Source: Streptosporangium becharense
GTDB taxonomy: Bacteria; Actinomycetota; Actinomycetes; Streptosporangiales; Streptosporangiaceae
Assembly: GCF_014204985.1 (NCBI RefSeq)
Contig: NZ_JACHMP010000001.1
Location: 2,294,001-2,358,000 of the forward strand
Reading direction: 5' to 3'
DNA length: 64,000 bases
Part shown: piece by piece, positions 485-25,632 of the stretch
Position numbering within the stretch: the first letter of the stretch is position 1
How the letters are laid out: the number at the start of each line of letters is the position of its first letter
Position numbers and translations under genes: made by a program
Notes under the pieces: model-generated
Told to the model about the DNA's origin: nothing
The model's database searches: none
Seen by the model: the letters and a program-made list of their open reading frames with translations, nothing else

Positions 485-504
485 AAAAGGACTTTGGTCC
501 CGAC
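485..504 (+). promoter_or_regulatory. DosR/DevR-box-like site upstream of nirK-like gene
   Basis: The 20-mer AAAAGGACTTTGGTCCCGAC matches the DosR box core (GGACTTTxGTCCC) with 14 of 20 consensus positions. It lies about 113 bp upstream of the chosen TTG start of the nirK-like gene. The position suits activation of that gene by an oxygen/NO-responsive DosR/DevR regulator. No DosRS genes are visible in the window, so the assignment rests on motif similarity and on similar sites before narG. Confidence 0.55.
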
Positions 505-616
505 GGCAACGGCCTTTGAGCCCGGTCGTACCGCACCTCGGCCGGTTAGCGTGAGGCCGGAGGCGCCACCGCGTTCACGCGGCGACGCGCCGGTCAGCGA
601 TAGGGAGGCACCCGCG

Positions 617-3271
617 TTGGGTCCGGTCGAGGTGCGTATCGAGAAGGGTCCGCCGCCCACCCCGCCACCGGACGGGCCGCCGCGCCTGCGCGCGTCGTGG
701 CACCTGCGGGCGAACGCGATCGTGGTGGGCTGGCTGGGCCTGACCGTCGCCACCGCCCTGGCGGGCGAGGCACTGCCGGCACCGCGCTGGCTGCTGATCC
801 ACGTGTTCCTGCTTGGCGCGGTCAGCACCGCCATCCTCATCTGGAGCGAACACTTCGCGGTGGCGCTGCTGCGGGCACGCACGCCGGAGCGCCGCTGGAG
901 CCTGACCCGGCTGGGCCTGCTGAACACCGCGACGGTGGCCGTGCTGCACGGCGCGGCCGTCGGGCCGTGGCCGGTGGCGGCGACCGGGGCGGGTGTGATC
1001 GTGGTGGTCGTCATCTGGCACGCGGTCGCGCTGGTGCAGTTGGTCCGGCGGGCGCTGCCCGGCCGGTTCGGGCACGTCATCGCCTGGTACGTGTGCGCCG
1101 CCGCGGCGCTGGCGACCGGCGGCACCCTGGGCGGGCTGCTGACCGCGCACGTCGGGCACGGCAGCCTGCACGAGCGGCTGCACGCCGCGCACGCCGAGGT
1201 GAACCTGCTCGGCTGGGTGGGGCTGACCGTGCTCGGCACGTTGTTCACGCTGTGGCCGACGGTGCTGCGCACCCGCATGTCGGACCGGACCCGCAGGGCG
1301 TCCCTGATCGGGTTGCGGCTGGTCGTGCCGGGGCTGACGTTGCTGGTCGGCGGCCTGCTGGCCGACCAGCGCCAGGTCGCGGTGGCCGGTCTCGGAGTGT
1401 ACGCGGCCGGAGCGCTGGCGGCGCTGCTGCCGCTGGCCGAGGTGGTGCGGCGGCGTCCGCACACCGGGGCGGCCTGGATGCTCGGCGCCGGGGTGGTCTG
1501 GTTCGAGGTGGCGCTGGTGATCGACCTGGTGATCGTGGCGACCCGCCCGGCCGACCGGGTCGGCCACGCGCTGGAGCCGTTGCTGCCGGCCGTGCTGGTG
1601 GGGTTCGTCGCCCAGGTGCTGCTCGGTTCGCTGCTGCACCTGCTGCCGGCGGTGCTGGGCGGGGGCCCGGCCCGGTTCAAGGAGAACGCCGCGCTGCTGG
1701 AACGCGGTTGGGTGGTGCGGATGGTGGCGCTCAACGCCGGGGTGCTGCTGCTGGTGCTGCCGGTGCCCCGGCCGCTGGCCCTGCTGGGATGGGCGTTGGT
1801 GCTGGGCTCGGCCACGGTGTTCGTCGTGCTGGCGGTGGCGGCTCTGGTCCGGGCGAGGCAGCCCGGCGGTCAGGCGCGGACGGCCTCGCCCGCGTTGGGC
1901 GGGGTGGCGGCGGGATGCCTGCTGACGGCCGTCGCGGTCGTCGTGGCGACGACCGGCGGTTCCGGGCCGGAGACGGCGGTCGTCGCCACCGGTGCGCGTA
2001 CGGTCGAGGTGACGCTGTCCGGGATGAGCATCCGGCCCGCCGTGATCGAGGCCCCCGCCGGGACCGTGCTCACCCTGCGCGTCACCAATGCCGACGCCCA
2101 GCGGCACGACCTGCGGCTTGCCACCGGTGAGCGCACCCCGTTGCTGGGAGCCGGGCAGAGTGCCACGCTGACGCTGGCGCCGCTGGCTGAGGCCGTCGAC
2201 GGCTGGTGCACCGTGGTGGGGCACCGCGCGGCGGGCATGACGATGCGCATCGTGCCCGTCGGGGCGTCCGCCCAGCCGGCGGACCAGAGCGGGCCCAGCG
2301 GGTCCGGTGTGCCCAGCGGGCACAGTGGGCACGGCGGGCAGGGAACCCAGGGCGACGCGGGCGGCGCGACGACGCGGGGGACGGAGGGGCCGGTCCGGCT
2401 CGACCTGACCGCGCCGATGCCGCCGGGGTGGAAACCGTACGACGCGACGCTCGAACCCGCGCCCGGCGGGAAGGAACACGCCGTGGAGATCCGCGTGGAC
2501 GACACCTCCGAGCACCAGGTCGCGCCCGGTGTGCGGCAGCGGATGTGGACGTTCAACGGGACCCTGCCCGGGCCGACGCTGCGTGGGAAAGTCGGCGACG
2601 TGTTCGTCGTGACGTTCGTCAACAGCGGCACCATGGGGCACGGCATCGACTTCCACGCCGGCGCGACCGCACCCGACGGGCCGATGCGCACGATCCAGCC
2701 GGGAGAGCGGCTGACCTACCGCTTCCGCGCCGACTACGCCGGAGCGTGGCTCTACCACTGCTCGACGATGCCGATGACGCAGCACATCGCCGCCGGCATG
2801 TACGGGGCGGTGGTCATCGACCCGCCGGACCTGGCGAAGGTGGACCGCGAGTATCTGCTGGTCTCCGGTGAGTTGTACCTCGGTGAGCCGGGTGGCGACG
2901 CCCCGGTCGCGAAGATCCGCGAAGGTCGCCCCGACGGGTGGATGTTCAACGGCACCGCCGCGGGTTACGACCACGCCCCGCTGGAGGCGAAGGCCGGGGA
3001 GCGGGTGCGGATCTGGGCGGTGTCGGCCGGACCGAGCTCGGGCACCGCGCTGCACGTGGTCGGCGCGCCGTTCGACACCGTCTACAAGGAAGGCGCCTAC
3101 CTGCTGCGCGCCGACGATCCGGGCGGATCTCAGGTGCTGGATCTGGCACCCGCCCAGGGCGGCTTCGCCGAGCTGGTCTTCCCGGAGCCGGGCACCTACC
3201 CCGTGGTCGACCACGCGATGCGGCACGCCGAGGCCGGCGCGCACGGCCTGTTCCGGGTGGGTGCCCGGTGA
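617..3271 (+). CDS. nirK: Membrane-fused copper nitrite reductase (NirK-like multicopper oxidase)
   Basis: Predicted to reduce nitrite to NO on the outer face of the membrane. The 884-residue protein has three parts: about 11 hydrophobic segments (residues 30-430) with a His-rich HERLHAAHAEVNLLGW stretch resembling haem/copper membrane subunits, a single cupredoxin-like domain (about 450-550), and a C-terminal two-domain NirK module (about 590-884). Type-1 Cu ligands are His675, Cys715, His723 and Met728; type-2 ligands are His680, His714 and His813. All are present. A Gly/Ser/His-rich linker separates the domains. The TTG start at 617 is chosen because AGGGAGG lies 8 bp upstream; an open frame extends to 281 but is GC-biased leader. 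The GTGA overlap with the next gene indicates translational coupling. Long actinobacterial NirK forms of this kind are known; electron donor and exact start are uncertain. Confidence 0.82.
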   Translation: MGPVEVRIEKGPPPTPPPDGPPRLRASWHLRANAIVVGWLGLTVATALAGEALPAPRWLLIHVFLLGAVSTAILIWSEHFAVALLRARTPERRWSLTRLGLLNTATVAVLHGAAVGPWPVAATGAGVIVVVVIWHAVALVQLVRRALPGRFGHVIAWYVCAAAALATGGTLGGLLTAHVGHGSLHERLHAAHAEVNLLGWVGLTVLGTLFTLWPTVLRTRMSDRTRRASLIGLRLVVPGLTLLVGGLLADQRQVAVAGLGVYAAGALAALLPLAEVVRRRPHTGAAWMLGAGVVWFEVALVIDLVIVATRPADRVGHALEPLLPAVLVGFVAQVLLGSLLHLLPAVLGGGPARFKENAALLERGWVVRMVALNAGVLLLVLPVPRPLALLGWALVLGSATVFVVLAVAALVRARQPGGQARTASPALGGVAAGCLLTAVAVVVATTGGSGPETAVVATGARTVEVTLSGMSIRPAVIEAPAGTVLTLRVTNADAQRHDLRLATGERTPLLGAGQSATLTLAPLAEAVDGWCTVVGHRAAGMTMRIVPVGASAQPADQSGPSGSGVPSGHSGHGGQGTQGDAGGATTRGTEGPVRLDLTAPMPPGWKPYDATLEPAPGGKEHAVEIRVDDTSEHQVAPGVRQRMWTFNGTLPGPTLRGKVGDVFVVTFVNSGTMGHGIDFHAGATAPDGPMRTIQPGERLTYRFRADYAGAWLYHCSTMPMTQHIAAGMYGAVVIDPPDLAKVDREYLLVSGELYLGEPGGDAPVAKIREGRPDGWMFNGTAAGYDHAPLEAKAGERVRIWAVSAGPSSGTALHVVGAPFDTVYKEGAYLLRADDPGGSQVLDLAPAQGGFAELVFPEPGTYPVVDHAMRHAEAGAHGLFRVGAR

Positions 3272-3705
3272 CCTGGTGGGCGGTGGTCCGGTTCCTGCAC
3301 GTGTTGTCGGCGGCGCTGTGGGTCGGCGGGCAGCTGACGGTGTCGCTGGTGGTGCTGCCGCTGGCCAGGAGCCTGCTGGACGAGCAGCGGCGCGGCCGGA
3401 TGCTGCACGCGGTCGGCCGCCGCTTCGGGATGTTCACCGGGGCGGTGTTCCTGCCGGTGCAGCTCGGCACGGGCGTGGCCATCGCCTGGCACAAGGGCGT
3501 CACCTGGGCGTCGCTGGCCCAGCCCGGCTACGGCCGGATCCTGGCGGCCAAGCTGGCGTTGTTCTGCGCGGTCATGGCCGCGGCCGGCCTGCACGGGTGG
3601 GCCACCGGCGCCGGGCGCCCCGGTTTCGCCCGGGCCATGGCGGTGACCGCGCTGGTCGGTTCGGTGGGCGTCGTCCTGCTGGCCACCGCGCTGCCCGCCA
3701 CCTGA
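3268..3705 (+). CDS. CopD-like/DUF2269-type small membrane protein
   Basis: A 145-residue integral membrane protein with four predicted helices, starting at a GTG inside the stop region of the nirK-like gene (GTGA overlap), so the two are almost certainly co-translated. The pattern FLHVLSAALWVGGQL near the N-terminus, a central WHKGVTWASL segment and later helices with conserved His/Trp are typical of the CopD/DUF2269 superfamily, whose members bind copper or haem in membranes. A plausible role is copper delivery to, electron transfer to, or assembly of the adjacent cuproenzyme. That role is inferred from linkage only. There is no downstream gene on the same transcript before the DosR-like boxes at 3863. 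Confidence 0.7.
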   Translation: MTWWAVVRFLHVLSAALWVGGQLTVSLVVLPLARSLLDEQRRGRMLHAVGRRFGMFTGAVFLPVQLGTGVAIAWHKGVTWASLAQPGYGRILAAKLALFCAVMAAAGLHGWATGAGRPGFARAMAVTALVGSVGVVLLATALPAT

Positions 3706-3862: not shown

Positions 3863-3903
3863 TTCGGGCCTTTGGGCCCGATCGGTGGGACCAAAGACCC
3901 TGC
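3863..3903 (+). promoter_or_regulatory. Tandem DosR/DevR-box-like sites upstream of narG
   Basis: Site 1, 3863-3882, is TTCGGGCCTTTGGGCCCGAT, matching the DosR consensus at about 16 of 20 positions. Site 2, 3884-3903, contains GGGACCAAAGACCC, matching 12 of the 14 central positions. The start-to-start distance is 21 bp, two helical turns, as in tandem DosR promoters. A possible -10 (AATACG near 3909-3914) follows the proximal site, which would then overlap the -35. This suggests hypoxia/NO induction of narGHJI. Motif comparison was by eye. Confidence 0.6.
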
Positions 3904-4075
3904 GGGCCCAATACGGACTGCCACAAGGATGAAAAGTGTCGCGCCGGTGCCGAATCGGATCGACGCAGGTGGCGCGCCGGTACACCGGCGCCAGGTTTCC
4001 CTGATGGCTGTGCGGCTATTAAGGCCGAATGACGGGGATGCCTGGTTCGTGACGCGAGAAACAGGAGTTACATCT
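3904..4075 (+). other. narG 5' leader with hairpin
   Basis: If transcription starts just downstream of the proximal DosR-like box, narG has a leader of about 155 nt. It contains a GC-rich inverted repeat GCGCCGGT/ACCGGCGC at 3974-3991 and ends with an ACAGGAG Shine-Dalgarno sequence 8 bp before the ATG at 4076. No recognised riboswitch consensus was found. The open frame that runs through this leader from 3782 is not a credible narG extension. Confidence 0.4.
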
Positions 4076-7000
4076 ATGGCGGGCATGGACGGACCGGTCA
4101 GCGACGCGCTGCTGAAGCTGGGCCGGCACCTGCGCTCCGGAAAGGTCTCCGACGACCTGCGGACGCTGCACCAGATCGGCGGACGCCAGGCGGACGCCTT
4201 CTACCGCGACCGGTGGAGCCACGACAAGGTGGTGCGCTCCACGCACGGGGTGAACTGCACCGGGTCCTGTTCGTGGAAGGTCTACGTCAAGGACGGCATC
4301 ATCACCTGGGAGTCGCAGCAGACCGACTACCCGAGCGTCGGACCGGACCGTCCGGAGTACGAGCCGCGCGGCTGCCCGCGTGGAGCGGCGTTCTCCTGGT
4401 ACACCTACTCGCCCACCCGGGTGCGTTTCCCGTACGCCCGCGGCGTGATGATCGAGATGTACCGGGAGGCGAAGGCACGCCTGGGCGACCCGGTCGCGGC
4501 CTGGGCCGAGATCACCTCCGACCCCGCCAAGCGCCGCCGCTACCAGTCGGCCCGCGGCAAGGGCGGCCTGGTCCGCGTCACCTGGGACGAGGTGACCGAG
4601 ATCATCGCCGCCGCGCACGTGCACACCATCAAGACCTACGGTCCGGACAGGGTCGCCGGGTTCTCCCCGATCCCGGCGATGTCGATGGTCTCCCACGCCT
4701 CCGGCGCCCGGTTCGTCTCGCTGCTCGGCGGCACCATGCTGTCGTTCTACGACTGGTACGCCGACCTGCCGGTGGCCTCACCGCAGGTGTTCGGCGACCA
4801 GACCGACGTGCCGGAGTCGGCCGACTGGTGGGACGCGGCCTACCTGATGCTGTGGGGCTCCAACGTGCCGGTGACCCGCACGCCGGACGCGCACTACATG
4901 ACCGAGGCCCGTTACCGCGGCCAGAAGGTCGTGGTGGTCAGCCCCGACTTCAGCGACGCGACCAAGTTCGCCGACGAGTGGCTGGCGCCGCACCCGGGCA
5001 CCGACGGCGCTCTGGCCATGGCGATGGGGCACGTCATCCTCAAGGAGTTCTTCGTCGACCGGCAGGTGCCGTACTTCACCGACTACGTCAAACGCCACAG
5101 CGACCTGCCGTTCCTGGTGGCGCTGCAGGAGCGCGACGGCGGTTACGTGCCGGGCAAGTTCCTGACCGCCGCCGACCTCGGGGAGACCGGGAAGGAGGAG
5201 GCGTTCAAGACCGTGCTGGTCGACGCGGTCACCGGTGAACCGGTCGTGCCCAACGGCTCGCTCGGCTTCCGCTACTCCGAGCAGGGCGAGGGCCGCTGGA
5301 ACCTCGACCTGGGCGACGTCGACCCGCTGCTGAGCATGGACGGCGGGCCTACCGTGACGGTCCTGCTGCCCCGCTTCGACCAGACGGGCGACGGGGGTGT
5401 GCTGCGGCGCGGCGTGCCGGTCCGCGAGGTCGCCGGCAAGCTGGTGACGACGGTCTACGACCTCATGCTCGCCCAGTACGGTGTCGCCCGGCCCTCCGGT
5501 TCCTCGGCCGCCGGTGACGTGGCCGGGGAGAGCAGGAGCTGGCCCGCCTCCTACGACGACGCCGCGGCGCCGTACACGCCGGCCTGGCAGGAGACGATCA
5601 CGGGTGTGCCCGCGGCGACCGCCGTGAAGATCGCTCGTGAGTTCGCCCGCAACGCGGAGGAGTCCCGCGGCCGATCGATGATCATCATGGGGGCGGGGAC
5701 CAACCACTGGTTCCACTCCGACACCATCTACCGTTCCTTCCTGGCACTGACCACGCTCACCGGCTGCCAGGGCGTCAACGGCGGCGGCTGGGCCCACTAC
5801 GTCGGCCAGGAGAAGTGCCGCCCCATCACCGGCTGGGCACAGATGGCGTTCGGGCTCGACTGGTCGCGTCCGCCCCGCCAGATGATCGGCACCGCCTACT
5901 GGTACCTGCACACCGACCAGTGGCGTTACGACACCTACAGCGCCGACGTGGTCTCCTCACCGCTGGGCGGCGGCGCGTTCGCCGGGAAGGCCACCGCGGA
6001 CCTGCTGTCGCAGTCGGCGCGCCTGGGCTGGATGCCGTCGTATCCGACGTTCGACCGCAACGCGCTGGACCTGGCCGACGAGGCGGCCGCCTCCGGTCAG
6101 GAGGCGGGGCCGTACGTCGCCTCCCAGGTCGCCTCCGGCGAGCTCGGCTTCGCCTGCGAGGATCCCGACGCGCCCGCCAACTGGCCGCGGGTGCTGACCG
6201 TGTGGCGGGCCAACCTGCTGGGTTCCTCGGCCAAGGGCAACGAGTACTTCCTGCGGCACCTGCTGGGCACCGACTCCTCGGTGCGGGCCGAGGAGGCCGC
6301 CCCCGGGCAGCGTCCCGACGACGTGACGTGGCACGAGCAGGCGCCGCAGGGCAAGCTCGACCTGCTGCTGTCGCTGGACTTCCGGATGACGTCCACGACG
6401 CTGTTCTCCGACATCGTGCTGCCGGCCGCCACCTGGTACGAGAAGCACGACCTGTCGTCGACCGACATGCACCCGTTCGTGCACGCCTTCACCCCGGCCA
6501 TCGACCCGCCCTGGCAGACCCGCACCGACTTCGCCGCGTTCCAGGCGATCGCCAAGTCCTTCAGCGCGCTGGCGAAGACCCATCTGGGCGTGCGCAAGGA
6601 CCTGGTCGCGGTGCCGCTGCTGCACGACACCCCCGACGAGTTCGCCACCCCGCACGGTCTGGTGAGCGACTGGCGGCGCACCGGCGAGACGCCCGTGCCC
6701 GGCCGGAACTTCCCGAAGGTCGTCGTGGTGGAGCGGGACTACGGCGCGATCGCCGACAAGATGGCCTCGCTCGGGCCGCTGCTGGACCGGCTGGGCGCCA
6801 CGACCAAGGGCCTGACGTTCGACGTCACCGCCGAGGTCGCGCGGCTCGGCCGGATGAACGGCACCGTCCGCGGCGGCGTCGCCGACGGCCGGCCGTCGCT
6901 GGCGCGCGACACCGACATGTGCGAGACCATCCTGGCGCTGTCGGGCACCACCAACGGCCACCTGGCCGCCCAGGGGTTCACGACCCTGTCCCGCCGTACC

Positions 7001-7762
7001 GGCACCGGCTTCGACGGCCTCGCCGACGAGCACAAGAAGATCACTTTCGCCGACACCCAGGCCCGGCCCGTGCCGGTCACCACCTCGCCGGAATGGTCGG
7101 GCAGCGAGACCGGCGGTCGCCGCTACTCGGCGTTCACCATCAACGTCGAACACCGCAAGCCCTGGCACACCCTCACCGGCCGCCAGCACTTCTTCCTCGA
7201 CCACGACTGGATGCACGAGGCCGGCGAGGCGCTGCCCGTCTACCGGCCGCCGCTGAACATGACCGCGATGTTCGGCGAACCGAACATCGGCGACGGCGGG
7301 GAGCAGGGCATCACCGTGCGGTACCTCACCCCGCACTCCAAGTGGTCGATCCACTCGGAGTATCAGGACAACCTGCTGATGCTGACCCTGTCGCGGGGCG
7401 GGCCGACCATCTGGATGAGCCCGGACGACGCCGCCCGCGCGGGCATCTCCGACAACGACTGGGTCGAGGCGGTCAACCGCAACGGCGTCGTGGTGGCGCG
7501 GGCGATCGTCTCGCACCGCATGCCGACCGGGACGGTGTACATGTACCACGCCCAGGAACGGGTCGTGGACGTGCCCAAGAGCGAGACCTCCGGCAGGCGC
7601 GGCGGCATCCACAACTCCCTCACCCGCCTGCTGATCAAACCCACCCATCTGATCGGCGGCTACGCCCAACTGTCGTTCGCGTTCAACTACCTGGGGCCGA
7701 CCGGCAACCAGCGCGACGAGGTCACCGTGATCCGCCGCCGTAACCAGGAGGTCGACTACTGA
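4076..7762 (+). CDS. narG: Respiratory nitrate reductase alpha subunit
   Basis: Catalytic Mo-bisMGD subunit of membrane-bound nitrate reductase, reducing nitrate to nitrite at the cytoplasmic face with quinol-derived electrons via NarH/NarI. It is 1228 residues, the normal size. The FS0 iron-sulphur ligands are visible as His57, Cys61, Cys65 and Cys100, and the Mo-ligating aspartate is Asp226 in the SFYDWYADLP motif. The His ligand in place of the first Cys of FS0 is the hallmark of NarG. The ATG at 4076 has a GGAG site 8 bp upstream and matches the usual NarG N-terminus. It is the first gene of narGHJI, behind tandem DosR-like boxes. The stop overlaps a small ORF. Confidence 0.97.
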   Translation: MAGMDGPVSDALLKLGRHLRSGKVSDDLRTLHQIGGRQADAFYRDRWSHDKVVRSTHGVNCTGSCSWKVYVKDGIITWESQQTDYPSVGPDRPEYEPRGCPRGAAFSWYTYSPTRVRFPYARGVMIEMYREAKARLGDPVAAWAEITSDPAKRRRYQSARGKGGLVRVTWDEVTEIIAAAHVHTIKTYGPDRVAGFSPIPAMSMVSHASGARFVSLLGGTMLSFYDWYADLPVASPQVFGDQTDVPESADWWDAAYLMLWGSNVPVTRTPDAHYMTEARYRGQKVVVVSPDFSDATKFADEWLAPHPGTDGALAMAMGHVILKEFFVDRQVPYFTDYVKRHSDLPFLVALQERDGGYVPGKFLTAADLGETGKEEAFKTVLVDAVTGEPVVPNGSLGFRYSEQGEGRWNLDLGDVDPLLSMDGGPTVTVLLPRFDQTGDGGVLRRGVPVREVAGKLVTTVYDLMLAQYGVARPSGSSAAGDVAGESRSWPASYDDAAAPYTPAWQETITGVPAATAVKIAREFARNAEESRGRSMIIMGAGTNHWFHSDTIYRSFLALTTLTGCQGVNGGGWAHYVGQEKCRPITGWAQMAFGLDWSRPPRQMIGTAYWYLHTDQWRYDTYSADVVSSPLGGGAFAGKATADLLSQSARLGWMPSYPTFDRNALDLADEAAASGQEAGPYVASQVASGELGFACEDPDAPANWPRVLTVWRANLLGSSAKGNEYFLRHLLGTDSSVRAEEAAPGQRPDDVTWHEQAPQGKLDLLLSLDFRMTSTTLFSDIVLPAATWYEKHDLSSTDMHPFVHAFTPAIDPPWQTRTDFAAFQAIAKSFSALAKTHLGVRKDLVAVPLLHDTPDEFATPHGLVSDWRRTGETPVPGRNFPKVVVVERDYGAIADKMASLGPLLDRLGATTKGLTFDVTAEVARLGRMNGTVRGGVADGRPSLARDTDMCETILALSGTTNGHLAAQGFTTLSRRTGTGFDGLADEHKKITFADTQARPVPVTTSPEWSGSETGGRRYSAFTINVEHRKPWHTLTGRQHFFLDHDWMHEAGEALPVYRPPLNMTAMFGEPNIGDGGEQGITVRYLTPHSKWSIHSEYQDNLLMLTLSRGGPTIWMSPDDAARAGISDNDWVEAVNRNGVVVARAIVSHRMPTGTVYMYHAQERVVDVPKSETSGRRGGIHNSLTRLLIKPTHLIGGYAQLSFAFNYLGPTGNQRDEVTVIRRRNQEVDY

Positions 7763-7849: not shown

Positions 7850-9508
7850 ATGAGAGTGATGGCGCAGCTCGCCATGGTCATGAACCTGGACAAGTGCATC
7901 GGCTGCCACACCTGTTCGGTCACGTGCAAGCAGGCGTGGACCAACCGGGCCGGCACCGAGTACGTCTGGTTCAACAACGTCGAGACCCGTCCCGGGCAGG
8001 GTTACCCGCGCACCTACCAGGACCAGGAGAAGTGGAAGGGCGGCTGGGAGCTCAACGCCCGCGGCCGGTTGCAGCTGAAGGCCGGCGGGCGGCTGAAGAA
8101 GCTCTTCTCGATCTTTGCCAACCCGCTGATGCCGTCGATCCAGGACTACTACGAGCCCTGGACCTACGACTACGACCGGCTGTTCTCCGCACCCATGCAG
8201 GAGGACACCCCCGTCGCGCGGCCCCGCTCGCTCATCACCGGTGAGCCGACGAAGATCAGCTGGAGTGCGAACTGGGACGACAACCTGGCCGGCGCCCCCG
8301 AGCTGGCGACCGCCGACCCCGTGCTGCGCAAGGTCTCCGACCAGGTGAAGCTGGAGTTCGAGCAGGCGTTCATGTTCTACCTGCCGCGCATCTGCGAGCA
8401 CTGCCTCAACCCCTCGTGCGTGTCGTCGTGCCCGTCGGGGGCGATGTACAAGCGCTCCGAGGACGGCATCGTCCTGGTCGACCAGGACCGCTGCCGCGGC
8501 TGGCGGATGTGCGTGACCGGCTGCCCGTACAAGAAGGTGTACTTCAACCACCGCACCGGCAAGGCCGAGAAGTGCACCTTCTGCTTCCCCCGGGTCGAGG
8601 TGGGCATCCCCACCGTCTGCTCGGAGACCTGCGTGGGCCGGCTGCGCTACATCGGCATCATCCTCTACGACGCCGACCGGGTGGCCGAGGCCGCGTCCGT
8701 CGCCGACGAGAAGGCGCTGTACGAGGCGCAGAAGAGCGTGATGCTCGACCCGCACGACCCGGCCGTGATCGCCGAGGCCCGCGCGGCGGGCATCCCGGAG
8801 GACTGGCTGGAGGCCGCGCGGCGCTCCCCCATCCACCAGCTGATCTTCGACTACGGGGTGGCGCTGCCGCTGCATCCCGAGTACCGCACCATGCCGATGG
8901 TCTGGTACATCCCGCCGCTGTCGCCCGTCGTCGACGTGCTGAGCGGCACCGGCCACGACGGTGAGGACGCCGGCAACCTGTTCGGCGCGATCGACGCGCT
9001 GCGCATCCCGATCGGCTACCTGGCCGAGCTGTTCACCGCCGGAGACCCGGAGCCGGTCCGCGCCGTGCTGCGCCGCCTGGCCGCGATGCGCTCCTACATG
9101 CGCCGCGTCAACCTCGGCCAGGAACGCGACGAGTCGATCGCGACGGCGGTCGGCATGACCGGCGAGCAGATCGAGGGGATGCACCGGCTGCTGGCCATCG
9201 CCCCCTACGCCGAGCGCTACGTCATCCCCAAGGCCCACGCCGAGCAGGGTGCGCAGCTGGAGGAGCTGGCGACCGGGTGCAGCCTCGACTACGAGGGCGG
9301 CCCCGGCATGGGCGGCCCGTTCGGCGAGGCGTCCGGCAAGCCCGCCCCGATCGCGGTGGAGAACTTCCACGCGCTGCGGGAACGGCAGGCCGGCGACGAC
9401 GTGGACAACGCCAACGAGCTGCGCGGCCGGGTCAACCTCCTCAACTGGGACGGCAAGGGCACCCCGGACGGACTGTTCCCGAAGAACAACGGGAAGAAGG
9501 AGTCATGA
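7850..9508 (+). CDS. narH: Respiratory nitrate reductase beta subunit
   Basis: Electron-transfer subunit carrying one [3Fe-4S] and three [4Fe-4S] clusters between NarI haem and NarG. It is 552 residues, normal length. The first cluster motif CIGCHTCSVTC begins at Cys16. A second Cys group, CEHCLNPSC...SCPSG, is followed by CRGWRMCVTGC, where Trp replaces one Cys, the NarH-specific [3Fe-4S] signature. The ATG at 7850 begins MRVMAQ, the common family start; a second ATG three codons later is possible. It overlaps narJ by ATGA, consistent with translational coupling in narGHJI. Confidence 0.97.
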   Translation: MRVMAQLAMVMNLDKCIGCHTCSVTCKQAWTNRAGTEYVWFNNVETRPGQGYPRTYQDQEKWKGGWELNARGRLQLKAGGRLKKLFSIFANPLMPSIQDYYEPWTYDYDRLFSAPMQEDTPVARPRSLITGEPTKISWSANWDDNLAGAPELATADPVLRKVSDQVKLEFEQAFMFYLPRICEHCLNPSCVSSCPSGAMYKRSEDGIVLVDQDRCRGWRMCVTGCPYKKVYFNHRTGKAEKCTFCFPRVEVGIPTVCSETCVGRLRYIGIILYDADRVAEAASVADEKALYEAQKSVMLDPHDPAVIAEARAAGIPEDWLEAARRSPIHQLIFDYGVALPLHPEYRTMPMVWYIPPLSPVVDVLSGTGHDGEDAGNLFGAIDALRIPIGYLAELFTAGDPEPVRAVLRRLAAMRSYMRRVNLGQERDESIATAVGMTGEQIEGMHRLLAIAPYAERYVIPKAHAEQGAQLEELATGCSLDYEGGPGMGGPFGEASGKPAPIAVENFHALRERQAGDDVDNANELRGRVNLLNWDGKGTPDGLFPKNNGKKES

Positions 9509-10131
9509 CGAACCTCGGCGACGGGGAGGTGCGCACCGCCCACATGGTGGCCTCGGTGCTGCTCGGTTACCCCGACGACACCCTGTACGACGCCCGGCAG
9601 GTCCTGGCCGAGTCGGTGGCCGCGCTTCCCGGCGGGGAGGTCCGCAGGCGGCTGACCGCCTTCCTCGGCCACATGACCGCCACCGCGCGGGCCGACCTGG
9701 CCGCGCACTACGTGGCGACGTTCGACTTCAAGCGGCGCTGCTGCCTGTATCTGACCTACTACGCCTACGGCGACACGCGTAAGCGCGGCGCGGCGCTGCT
9801 CCGGTTCAAGCACGCCTTCCGCTCCTCGGGCTTCGAGCTCACCGACGGTGAGCTGCCCGACCACCTGGCGGTGGTGTGCGAGCTGTCGGCCCGCGGCGCC
9901 GTACGGGAGGCCAGGCGCCTGCTGCTGGAGAACCGGCCCGGCCTGGAGCTGCTGCGCAAGGCGCTTCAGGCCGAGCGGTCCCCGTACGCCGACGTCGTGG
10001 CCGCGGTGCTGGCCACGCTCCCGCCGGCGGATCTGCGCGACCAGGAGGCCGCGCTGCGGCTGGCGGCGCAGGGGCCGCCGGCTGAGGAGGTCGGGCTGGA
10101 ACCCTACGCGGTCATGGAGGCGACCCGGTGA
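9505..10131 (+). CDS. narJ: Nitrate reductase assembly chaperone NarJ
   Basis: A 208-residue soluble NarJ/TorD-family chaperone that binds apo-NarG and aids Mo-cofactor and FS0 insertion before membrane attachment. The family-typical YVATFDFKRRCCLYLTYY segment lies near residues 70-90 and a helical C-terminal region follows. ATG 9505 overlaps the narH stop (ATGA), with AGAAGGAG upstream, and the stop overlaps the narI GTG. It is not part of the final enzyme. Placement between narH and narI and its size agree with the family. Confidence 0.95.
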   Translation: MTNLGDGEVRTAHMVASVLLGYPDDTLYDARQVLAESVAALPGGEVRRRLTAFLGHMTATARADLAAHYVATFDFKRRCCLYLTYYAYGDTRKRGAALLRFKHAFRSSGFELTDGELPDHLAVVCELSARGAVREARRLLLENRPGLELLRKALQAERSPYADVVAAVLATLPPADLRDQEAALRLAAQGPPAEEVGLEPYAVMEATR

Positions 10132-10862
10132 ACGCACTGGACGTGGTGCTGTGGGTGGTGGCGCCGTACGTGGCGCTCACCGTGTTCGTGCTCGGGCACG
10201 TGTGGCGCTACCGCTACGACAAGTTCGGCTGGACCACCCGCTCGTCGCAGATGTACGAGTCGCGGCTGCTGCGCATCGGCAGCCCGCTGTTCCACTTCGG
10301 CATCCTGGTCGTCCTGCTCGGCCACATCGGCGGGCTGGTCATCCCCAAGAGCTGGACCGAGGCGGTGGGGGTCAGCGAGGAGGTCTACCACGTCACGGCG
10401 GTCGTGCTCGGCACCATCGCCGGTGTCGCCACCCTGGGCGGCCTCGCGATCCTGATCTACCGGCGCCGCACGGTCGGCCCGGTGTTCACCGCCACCACCC
10501 GCAACGACAAGCTCATGTACGCGGTGCTGGCCCTGACCATCGTGCTCGGCCTGGCCGCGACGGTCGCCGCCAACATCGTCGGCGGCGGCTACGACTACCG
10601 CACCACCATCTCGCCGTGGTTCCGGTCGATCTTCTACTTCCAGCCGGATCCGGCGCTGATGGCCGGGGCGCCGCTGCTGTTCCAGTTGCACGCGCTCAGC
10701 GCGCTGCTGCTCTTCGCGATCTGGCCGTTCACCCGGCTGGTGCACATGCTCACGGCGCCCGTCGGCTACCTGACCCGGCCCTACGTCGTCTACCGGAGCA
10801 GGGACGAGCAGCGGGCCGGTTCCCGGGCTCCCCGGCGCGGCTGGGAGCCGTCGTCGCGGTGA
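10128..10862 (+). CDS. narI: Respiratory nitrate reductase gamma subunit (cytochrome b)
   Basis: A 244-residue five-helix membrane cytochrome b that oxidises quinol and passes electrons to NarH. The haem-ligating histidine pairs are visible: LFHFGILVVLLGHIGG near residues 55-70, and FQLHALSALLLFAIWPFTRLVHML near 185-210. The GTG start at 10128 overlaps the narJ stop (GTGA). It is the last gene of the nar operon and is followed by two strong hairpins. The cytoplasmic tail is Arg-rich. Confidence 0.96.
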   Translation: MNALDVVLWVVAPYVALTVFVLGHVWRYRYDKFGWTTRSSQMYESRLLRIGSPLFHFGILVVLLGHIGGLVIPKSWTEAVGVSEEVYHVTAVVLGTIAGVATLGGLAILIYRRRTVGPVFTATTRNDKLMYAVLALTIVLGLAATVAANIVGGGYDYRTTISPWFRSIFYFQPDPALMAGAPLLFQLHALSALLLFAIWPFTRLVHMLTAPVGYLTRPYVVYRSRDEQRAGSRAPRRGWEPSSR

Positions 10863-24699: not shown

Positions 24700-25632
24700 A
24701 TGCGAGAGTTCAGTCAGACCGAGCTGCTGCATGAGCTTGAGCCCGTCGTGGCCGGTGAGCTGGACAGGCACGAGAAAATGGCCAAGGAGTGGTTCCCTCA
24801 CGAGTACGTCCCGTGGTCGGAGGGCCGCAACTACGACGGCATCTTCGAGGGCGACGCGTGGTCCGAGACCGACTCGGAGATCCCGGAGGAGGCACGGATC
24901 TCCCTCATCGTGAACCTGCTGACCGAGGACAACCTCCCCAGCTACCACTACGAGATCGCCACCGCCTTCGGCCGGGACGCTGCATGGGGCACCTGGGTGC
25001 ACCGCTGGACCGCCGAGGAGGCCCGGCACGGCACCGCCCTGCGCGACTACCTCACGGTGACCCGCGCGGTCGATCCGGTCGCGCTGGAGCGGGCCCGCAT
25101 GAACCACATGGGCGAGGGCTTCAGCAACTCCTACGAAGGCGTGCTGCACTCGGTGGCCTACGTCTCCTTCCAGGAGTTGGCCACCCGCATCTCGCACCGC
25201 AACACCGGCAAGGCGTCGCAGGACCCCAACTGCGAGCGCCTGCTCGCCAGGATCGCCGCCGACGAGAACCTGCACATGCTCTTCTACCGCAACCTGCTGA
25301 GCGCGGCCTTCGAACTCGCCCCCGACCAGGCCATGCGCGCGGTGACCGACGTGGTCACCACCTTCCAGATGCCCGGGACCGGCATCGAGGGCTTCACCCG
25401 CAAGGCGATGATCATCGCCCATGCCGGGATCTACGACCTGCGCCTGCACATCGACGACGTCCTGCAGCCGGTGCTGCGCCAGTGGGACGTGTTCAACCTC
25501 CAGGGGCTCGGTCCCGAGGGCGAGAAGTCCCGTGAGGAGCTGGCCGAGTTCATGGACCGCCTGGAGGTCACCGCCTCGCGCTTCGTCGAGCGCCGCGAGG
25601 CCCGCCGTGCCCGCGAGGCGGGCCGGGCCTGA
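24700..25632 (+). CDS. Acyl-ACP desaturase (soluble di-iron type)
   Basis: A 310-residue soluble desaturase that introduces a double bond into acyl-ACP (Delta9-type in relatives) using ferredoxin electrons and O2. The di-iron ligands are visible: Glu76 (TEDNLP), EEARH at 106-110, Glu159 (FQEL), and DENLH at 188-192. Length and motif spacing fit the plant-type/mycobacterial DesA family. The strong RBS is AGGGAGAG. Inverted repeats at 24651-24680 probably control it. The ferredoxin partner is not in the window. Confidence 0.92.
   Translation: MREFSQTELLHELEPVVAGELDRHEKMAKEWFPHEYVPWSEGRNYDGIFEGDAWSETDSEIPEEARISLIVNLLTEDNLPSYHYEIATAFGRDAAWGTWVHRWTAEEARHGTALRDYLTVTRAVDPVALERARMNHMGEGFSNSYEGVLHSVAYVSFQELATRISHRNTGKASQDPNCERLLARIAADENLHMLFYRNLLSAAFELAPDQAMRAVTDVVTTFQMPGTGIEGFTRKAMIIAHAGIYDLRLHIDDVLQPVLRQWDVFNLQGLGPEGEKSREELAEFMDRLEVTASRFVERREARRAREAGRA

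Follow-up and report, generated by a model that had tools for sequence, protein, structure and literature searches.

We identified two tandem DevR-type palindromes, exactly 21 bp apart, upstream of the nitrate reductase operon narGHJI in a 64-kb stretch of Streptosporangium becharense DNA (the window). This pair is very probably the operator through which DevR (DosR/OsdR) activates the narGHJI promoter, an assignment in which we infer DevR binding, cooperativity, activation and the inducing signal. The sequence itself shows the boxes, their spacing, the geometry of the -10 element, conservation in close relatives, the presence of DevR and a kinase, and boxes shared by several respiratory genes.

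Paired boxes upstream of narGHJI

The distal 20-mer TTCGGGCCTTTGGGCCCGAT (3863-3882) agrees at 16 of 20 positions with TTSGGGACTWWAGTCCCSAA, which we take to be the DevR consensus and used for box comparison. The promoter-proximal GGGACCAAAGACCC agrees with the 14-bp core of this consensus at 12 of 14 positions. The two cores begin at 3866 and 3887. Both palindromes of the original prediction and their 21-bp separation are thus confirmed, as is a plausible -10 element downstream of the pair. Features of the region are listed in Table 1.

Table 1. Genes, DevR-type boxes and predicted -10 elements around the nirK-like gene and narGHJI (window coordinates)
Feature	Position	Strand	Details
Strong DevR-type box before nirK-like gene, AGGACTTTGGTCCC	488..501	+	Window rank 1, score 20.1 (position 485)
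Weak second box, CGGCCTTTGAGCCC	510..523	+	22 bp from first box; 9/14 core positions agree
Predicted -10 of nirK-like gene, TAGCGT	547..552	+	37 nt from second box start
nirK-like gene	617..3271	+	TTG start inferred from Shine-Dalgarno-like AGGGAGG, 602-608
Distal DevR-type box, GGGCCTTTGGGCCC	3866..3879	+	Score 12.0; within 20-mer 3863-3882
Promoter-proximal DevR-type box, GGGACCAAAGACCC	3887..3900	+	Score 14.4
Predicted -10, AAGGAT	3925..3930	+	38 nt from proximal box start
narG, respiratory nitrate reductase alpha subunit	4076..7762	+	TIGR01580, 1630 bits (cut-off 1084)
narH	7850..9508	+	TIGR01660, 739 bits (cut-off 524)
narJ (start assumed)	9505..10131	+	PF02613, E=2.6e-16
narI	10128..10862	+	PF02665, E=9.9e-95

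A Streptomyces coelicolor OsdR-site matrix scored the two narG boxes at 8.3 and 4.7, no better than its reversed control. The published OsdR matrix is GATC-centred and the Streptosporangiaceae boxes are A/T-centred, so we used a matrix built from the devR promoters of relatives. It was trained on devR-upstream boxes from 26 of 29 relatives, with the genome under study excluded and the training boxes picked with the published-type pattern GGGMCNNNNGKCCC. Across the 64-kb window, this matrix placed the proximal narG box third (position 3884) and the distal box fifth (position 3863). The sites ranked second (49093, score 15.3) and fourth (45018, score 12.8) lie inside ORFs called coding and are probably chance matches. 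When the window was dinucleotide-shuffled 100 times, sites scoring at least 11.9 averaged 1.32 per shuffle, and only one shuffled window contained two such sites separated by 14-60 bp. Exact GGGNCYWWRGNCCC occurs at six places in the 7.82-Mb genome and its reversed control at 17; the narG pair accounts for two of the six. Because this motif was drawn from the pair itself, only its rarity and the nearness of the two copies are informative. A genome-wide search with a tandem G/C pattern was swamped by repeats and rejected (159 and 141 matches, against 243 and 264 for the control).

The position of the pair is consistent with a DevR-dependent promoter. The ATG start of narG is common to relatives. 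If transcription begins 6-7 nt past the -10 element, the start would fall near 3936-3937 and the proximal box would be centred near -43, touching the -35 region. Such an overlap, which depends on a predicted start, agrees with the presence of a -10-like hexamer 37-38 nt from the start of the box. NANNNT is found at this offset in all 11 loci of a paired set, which had been selected for having a second site 21 bp away; their spacing is consequently not an independent count, and the loci are related, so other counts among them are not independent either. The same offset is occupied in 11 of 17 other narG loci (mean per offset 0.65 of 17). In devR promoters (27 of 30 devR loci were included), it is occupied in 19 of 27, in every case by TANNNT. 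The commonest single NANNNT offset in these promoters is 49 (11 of 27, three of them TANNNT), which probably stems from the start-codon region.

Between the nirK-like gene and narG, we also observed an ORF (2938-3705, + strand) that has no Pfam or NCBIfam match and by eye resembles a CopD-type membrane protein.

Conservation of the boxes in relatives

Judged by narG, the closest named relatives belong to Planobispora, Planomonospora, Nonomuraea and Microbispora. We aligned eight narG-first loci, including the window, that had been chosen for their boxes; two equally close loci (L014 and L017), in which a NarK-like gene leads the operon, were left out. In this alignment, some 70 bp form a distinct block amid poorly alignable DNA. 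It consists of a GGGYCTTT-type box, seven bases, a GGGACYAAAG-type box and then nAGGAT or a similar sequence. Most of the eight loci carry the proximal box in the form GGGACTAAAGACCC. Loci that lack a box immediately upstream of narG often have boxes 1.0-1.5 kb upstream, ahead of the preceding gene. NarK (TIGR00886, below cut-off) was the best NCBIfam match of that gene in all three cases tested. A second site at 21 bp is retained in three narK-led operons (L014, L021 and L067).

Additional elements recur at the same period in some of these loci. A third element, GGGATATG, lies 21 bp past box 2 in L010-L013, L015 and L016, between the -35 and -10 regions; its counterpart in the window (3908-3921) is degenerate, CCAATACGGACTGC. 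L010 and L012 have an additional box 42 bp 5' of box 1, a distance that is also a multiple of 21 bp.

We identified narG in 57 of 120 genomes of a family sample and examined 61 loci from 52 genomes, having dropped matches that were partial or cut by contig ends. The best box within 1.5 kb exceeds the 99% shuffle level at 24 of the 61 loci. Among these 24, NANNNT occupies the 37-38 offset in 18 (mean per offset 0.85), and a partner scoring at least 3 lies at 21 bp in six and at 22 bp in three, with at most one at any other spacing. Over 14 genera, the mean partner-site score is highest at 21 bp (z=3.3) and 22 bp (z=3.0). A second sample of named actinobacteria comprised 80 loci, two of which were dropped for having less than 300 bp of upstream sequence. 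Boxes were found at 31 of the remaining 78 narG loci, or at 24 of 71 once seven records common to the family sample were removed. In this reduced set, NANNNT occurs at 37-38 in 12 of 24 loci (mean per offset 0.81) and partner scores are on average highest at 22 bp (z=3.2), not 21. Partners scoring at least 3 are rare in it, with one locus of 24 at 21 bp, one of 24 at 22 bp and no more than two at any other spacing.

Taken together, the family sample and the named recount indicate that the box and the -10 element are widespread and that strong pairing at 21 bp characterises close relatives. The conservation that the original prediction called for therefore holds among close relatives, where boxes, 21-bp spacing and -10 element recur before narG or narK-narG, and is not clear for the pairing in the wider family, in which the 21-bp partner is present in a minority of loci.

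This distribution bears on a narrower version of the DevR operator, in which the proximal box works alone and the distal palindrome adds little, so that the two do not form a cooperative unit. At 21-22 bp, a good second site is missing from most loci that have a box, and the distal counterpart is degenerate in L016 and L018, as this version would expect. It accounts less well for the distal site found at exactly -21 in the window, L010, L011, L013 and L015 (scores 5.2 to 12.1) or for the maximum in mean partner scores at 21-22 bp. Cooperative binding of Mycobacterium tuberculosis DevR to adjacent low-affinity sites, established according to the available text of PMC3029386, is a further argument for a functional pair. 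We regard action of the proximal box alone as unlikely, though a real contender within the DevR operator reading.

DevR, a DevS-like kinase and other box-bearing genes

The genome encodes a DevR orthologue (G000:C1:651580-652236) whose best PDB match is DevR (3c3w, E=9.5e-80). Its gene has its own upstream box at -51. The genome also encodes a kinase in which a single frame holds two matches to GAF_2 and one to HisKA_3. The first GAF domain matches DevS (PDB 2y8h, E=1.2e-51), and the histidine of the HPPM motif is retained. This protein is likely a DevS/DosT-like haem-GAF sensor, with haem binding and pairing with DevR both putative. Two initial candidates, a DevS locus at 725-765 kb and a kinase in L105, proved wrong.

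Both regulator genes lie beside genes that carry boxes of their own. The kinase gene is convergent to pyruvate formate-lyase and radical-SAM activase-like genes (G000:C1:1284036-1289686; L160, L164), and a box, AGGACCTAGGTCCC, lies 107 bp ahead of the pyruvate formate-lyase gene. The boxed devR gene is convergent to cydAB, which has two boxes 23 bp apart (G000:C1:651529-654868; L216, L217). In devR promoters (L243-L272), a box near -50 together with TANNNT at 37-38 predicts a transcription start that coincides with the devR start codon or directly adjoins it; devR mRNA is possibly leaderless.

The nirK-like gene upstream of narG encodes a protein with a copper nitrite reductase-like C-terminal part and a cupredoxin-like domain ahead of it (PF13473, PF07732). 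Its best PDB matches are copper nitrite reductases, among them 6the over residues 614-881 (E=1.7e-42). The protein scores below the cut-off of the curated NirK model (TIGR02376, 146 bits, cut-off 296), and we therefore name it NirK-like only. We retrieved 25 matches, dropped four partial ones and examined 21 nirK-like upstream regions. The best box scores at least 12.9 in 11 of the 21, and in six of these 11 it lies 0.8-1.5 kb upstream. NANNNT is located 59-60 nt from the best box in eight of the 11 loci, seven times as TANNNT. This offset equals 22 plus 37-38, the arrangement seen in the window, the one locus in which the second box was inspected closely.

Exact matches to RGGACYWWRGTCCC occur at five places in the genome. 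They precede a Pyridox_ox_2 gene, cydAB, pflB and the nirK-like gene, and one is near a small membrane-protein ORF that is DoxX-like by eye and has no Pfam match. Four of the five lie outside called ORFs and the fifth is 5' of the inferred TTG of the nirK-like gene. Allowing one mismatch brings in box 2 of narG, another Pyridox_ox_2 gene and a narK-like gene (best match TIGR00886, below cut-off) whose box, at G000:C1:2290054, is some 8 kb upstream of narG, along with several sites inside genes. With up to one mismatch, the motif is not enriched genome-wide (42 places, 44 for the reversed control). Elsewhere in the window, an Rfam match to ASdes, a small RNA of M. tuberculosis (25018-25085, - strand, 79.2 bits, gathering threshold 40), lies in antisense orientation inside the gene for a fatty acid desaturase (24700-25632).

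The original prediction joined the narG and nirK-like sites in one hypoxia/NO regulon. The conserved box of the nirK-like gene and the encoded DevR and DevS-like kinase favour a common regulon, and the NO component is ambiguous.

Another response regulator of the NarL/LuxR family, with a specificity overlapping that of DevR, could instead bind these sites. The genome has 57 GerE-domain matches, 54 of them over cut-off, and box 2 has GACCC where the devR-type box has GTCCC, a difference at one position of a half-site. Moreover, we found no DevR orthologue in two box-bearing genomes, G058 (L015, a pair) and G101 (L018, one strong box), where the best listed homologues are about 36-43% identical; recent loss, an assembly gap or another regulator might explain these cases. 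Across genomes, the association between box and DevR is not significant: a narG box is present in 19 of 43 genomes with DevR and two of nine without it (Fisher p=0.28), and 24 of the 43 DevR-bearing genomes have no narG box at the threshold used. Against a different regulator, the boxes were recovered by a matrix derived from devR promoters, their -10 geometry equals that of devR promoters and DevR of S. coelicolor binds narG2 DNA, as the available text of PMC4766573 reports. Binding by a regulator other than DevR is distinctly improbable.

The two boxes could also be read as a single long inverted repeat (GGGCCTTTGG ... CCAAAGACCC) that forms an RNA hairpin or terminates transcription of the upstream gene. 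The 41-nt stretch folds at -18.9 kcal/mol and pairing of the outer arms is frequent in the 11 paired loci, where the fourth arm position is nevertheless unpaired in six. No T run follows the repeat, the predicted transcription start is downstream of it, many loci have only one box, and the pair reappears before the NarK-like gene in other gene orders, which together make a hairpin or terminator very improbable. Simple G/C palindromes are common in this G+C-rich DNA (GGGACNNNNGGNCCC at 60 places on both strands, reversed control 163), but the shuffle results, the position of the pair and the conservation of the boxes, which extends across genera, leave chance a negligible explanation.

A proposed DevR switch and its relation to known systems

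In the DevR-activated promoter that we favour, low oxygen would cause the DevS/DosT-like haem-GAF kinase to phosphorylate DevR. One DevR dimer would bind the proximal box, which has its predicted centre near -43 and reaches the -35 region. On the distal box, two helical turns upstream and on the same face, another dimer would stabilise the first, and both would recruit RNA polymerase to the AAGGAT element.

A broader and more tentative proposal, which we think could hold but is rather less likely than not to do so in full, is that a portable DevR cassette (a proximal box, a -10 element 37-38 nt from its start and, in many cases, another box 21-22 bp farther upstream) accompanies the first gene of the nar operon, whichever gene that is. 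One haem-sensor switch might then govern nitrate reductase, the NirK-like protein, cytochrome bd, pyruvate formate-lyase, the narK-like gene and devR, including a nitrate-to-NO route with its own NO feedback. The box, the -10 offset and the optional partner box provide a testable rule for recognising DevR promoters of actinobacteria other than Mycobacterium and Streptomyces. They also suggest a link between the dormancy regulator and nitrate respiration in soil actinomycetes of the Streptosporangiaceae type.

A limited literature search turned up no study of Streptosporangiaceae in which DevR controls narG or nirK. The idea itself is not new, as DevR control of narGHJI has already been shown in S. 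coelicolor. According to the available text on that organism, mutants lacking devS or devR have less narG2 transcript and less Nar activity, and the region upstream of narG2 is bound by DevR (PMC4766573). NO donor above 1 uM reduces DevS autokinase activity and NO reduces narG2 transcript (PMC4766573), a pattern that indicates negative feedback rather than induction. An OsdR box is predicted at -53 of narG2, with others at SCO0214, which encodes a pyridoxamine oxidase, and SCO0213, which encodes a nitrate/nitrite transporter (PMC5069765).

The S. coelicolor DevSR/OsdKR-narG2H2J2I2 system, as described in the available parts of PMC4766573 and PMC5069765, resembles the one identified here in having a DevR orthologue and a palindromic box 5' of a narGHJI operon. 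Regulation of nitrate respiration is common to both, as a prediction in our case. The two differ in that narG2 has one listed predicted box (-53) with a GATC-type centre, whereas narG here has two, 21 bp apart, with A/T centres. In the same sources osdR is near the nar2 genes, and devR here is elsewhere (G000:C1:651580).

The classic targets of DevR in M. tuberculosis are narK2 and other genes, narGHJI is not known as one of them, and a box centre at -42.5 is known there. In the available M. tuberculosis literature, we found no spacing figure for adjacent primary and secondary DevR sites, and the accessible CSDeconv work gives 40 and 57 bp for two pairs; lacking a usable tandem-spacing figure, we do not equate the 21 bp observed here with the M. 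tuberculosis spacing. Full induction of M. tuberculosis DevR targets requires cooperative binding, as stated in the available text of PMC3029386. The promoters described there share with the narG promoter of S. becharense closely packed boxes, the proximal of which overlaps the -35 element, an overlap that is predicted in our case (PMC3029386).
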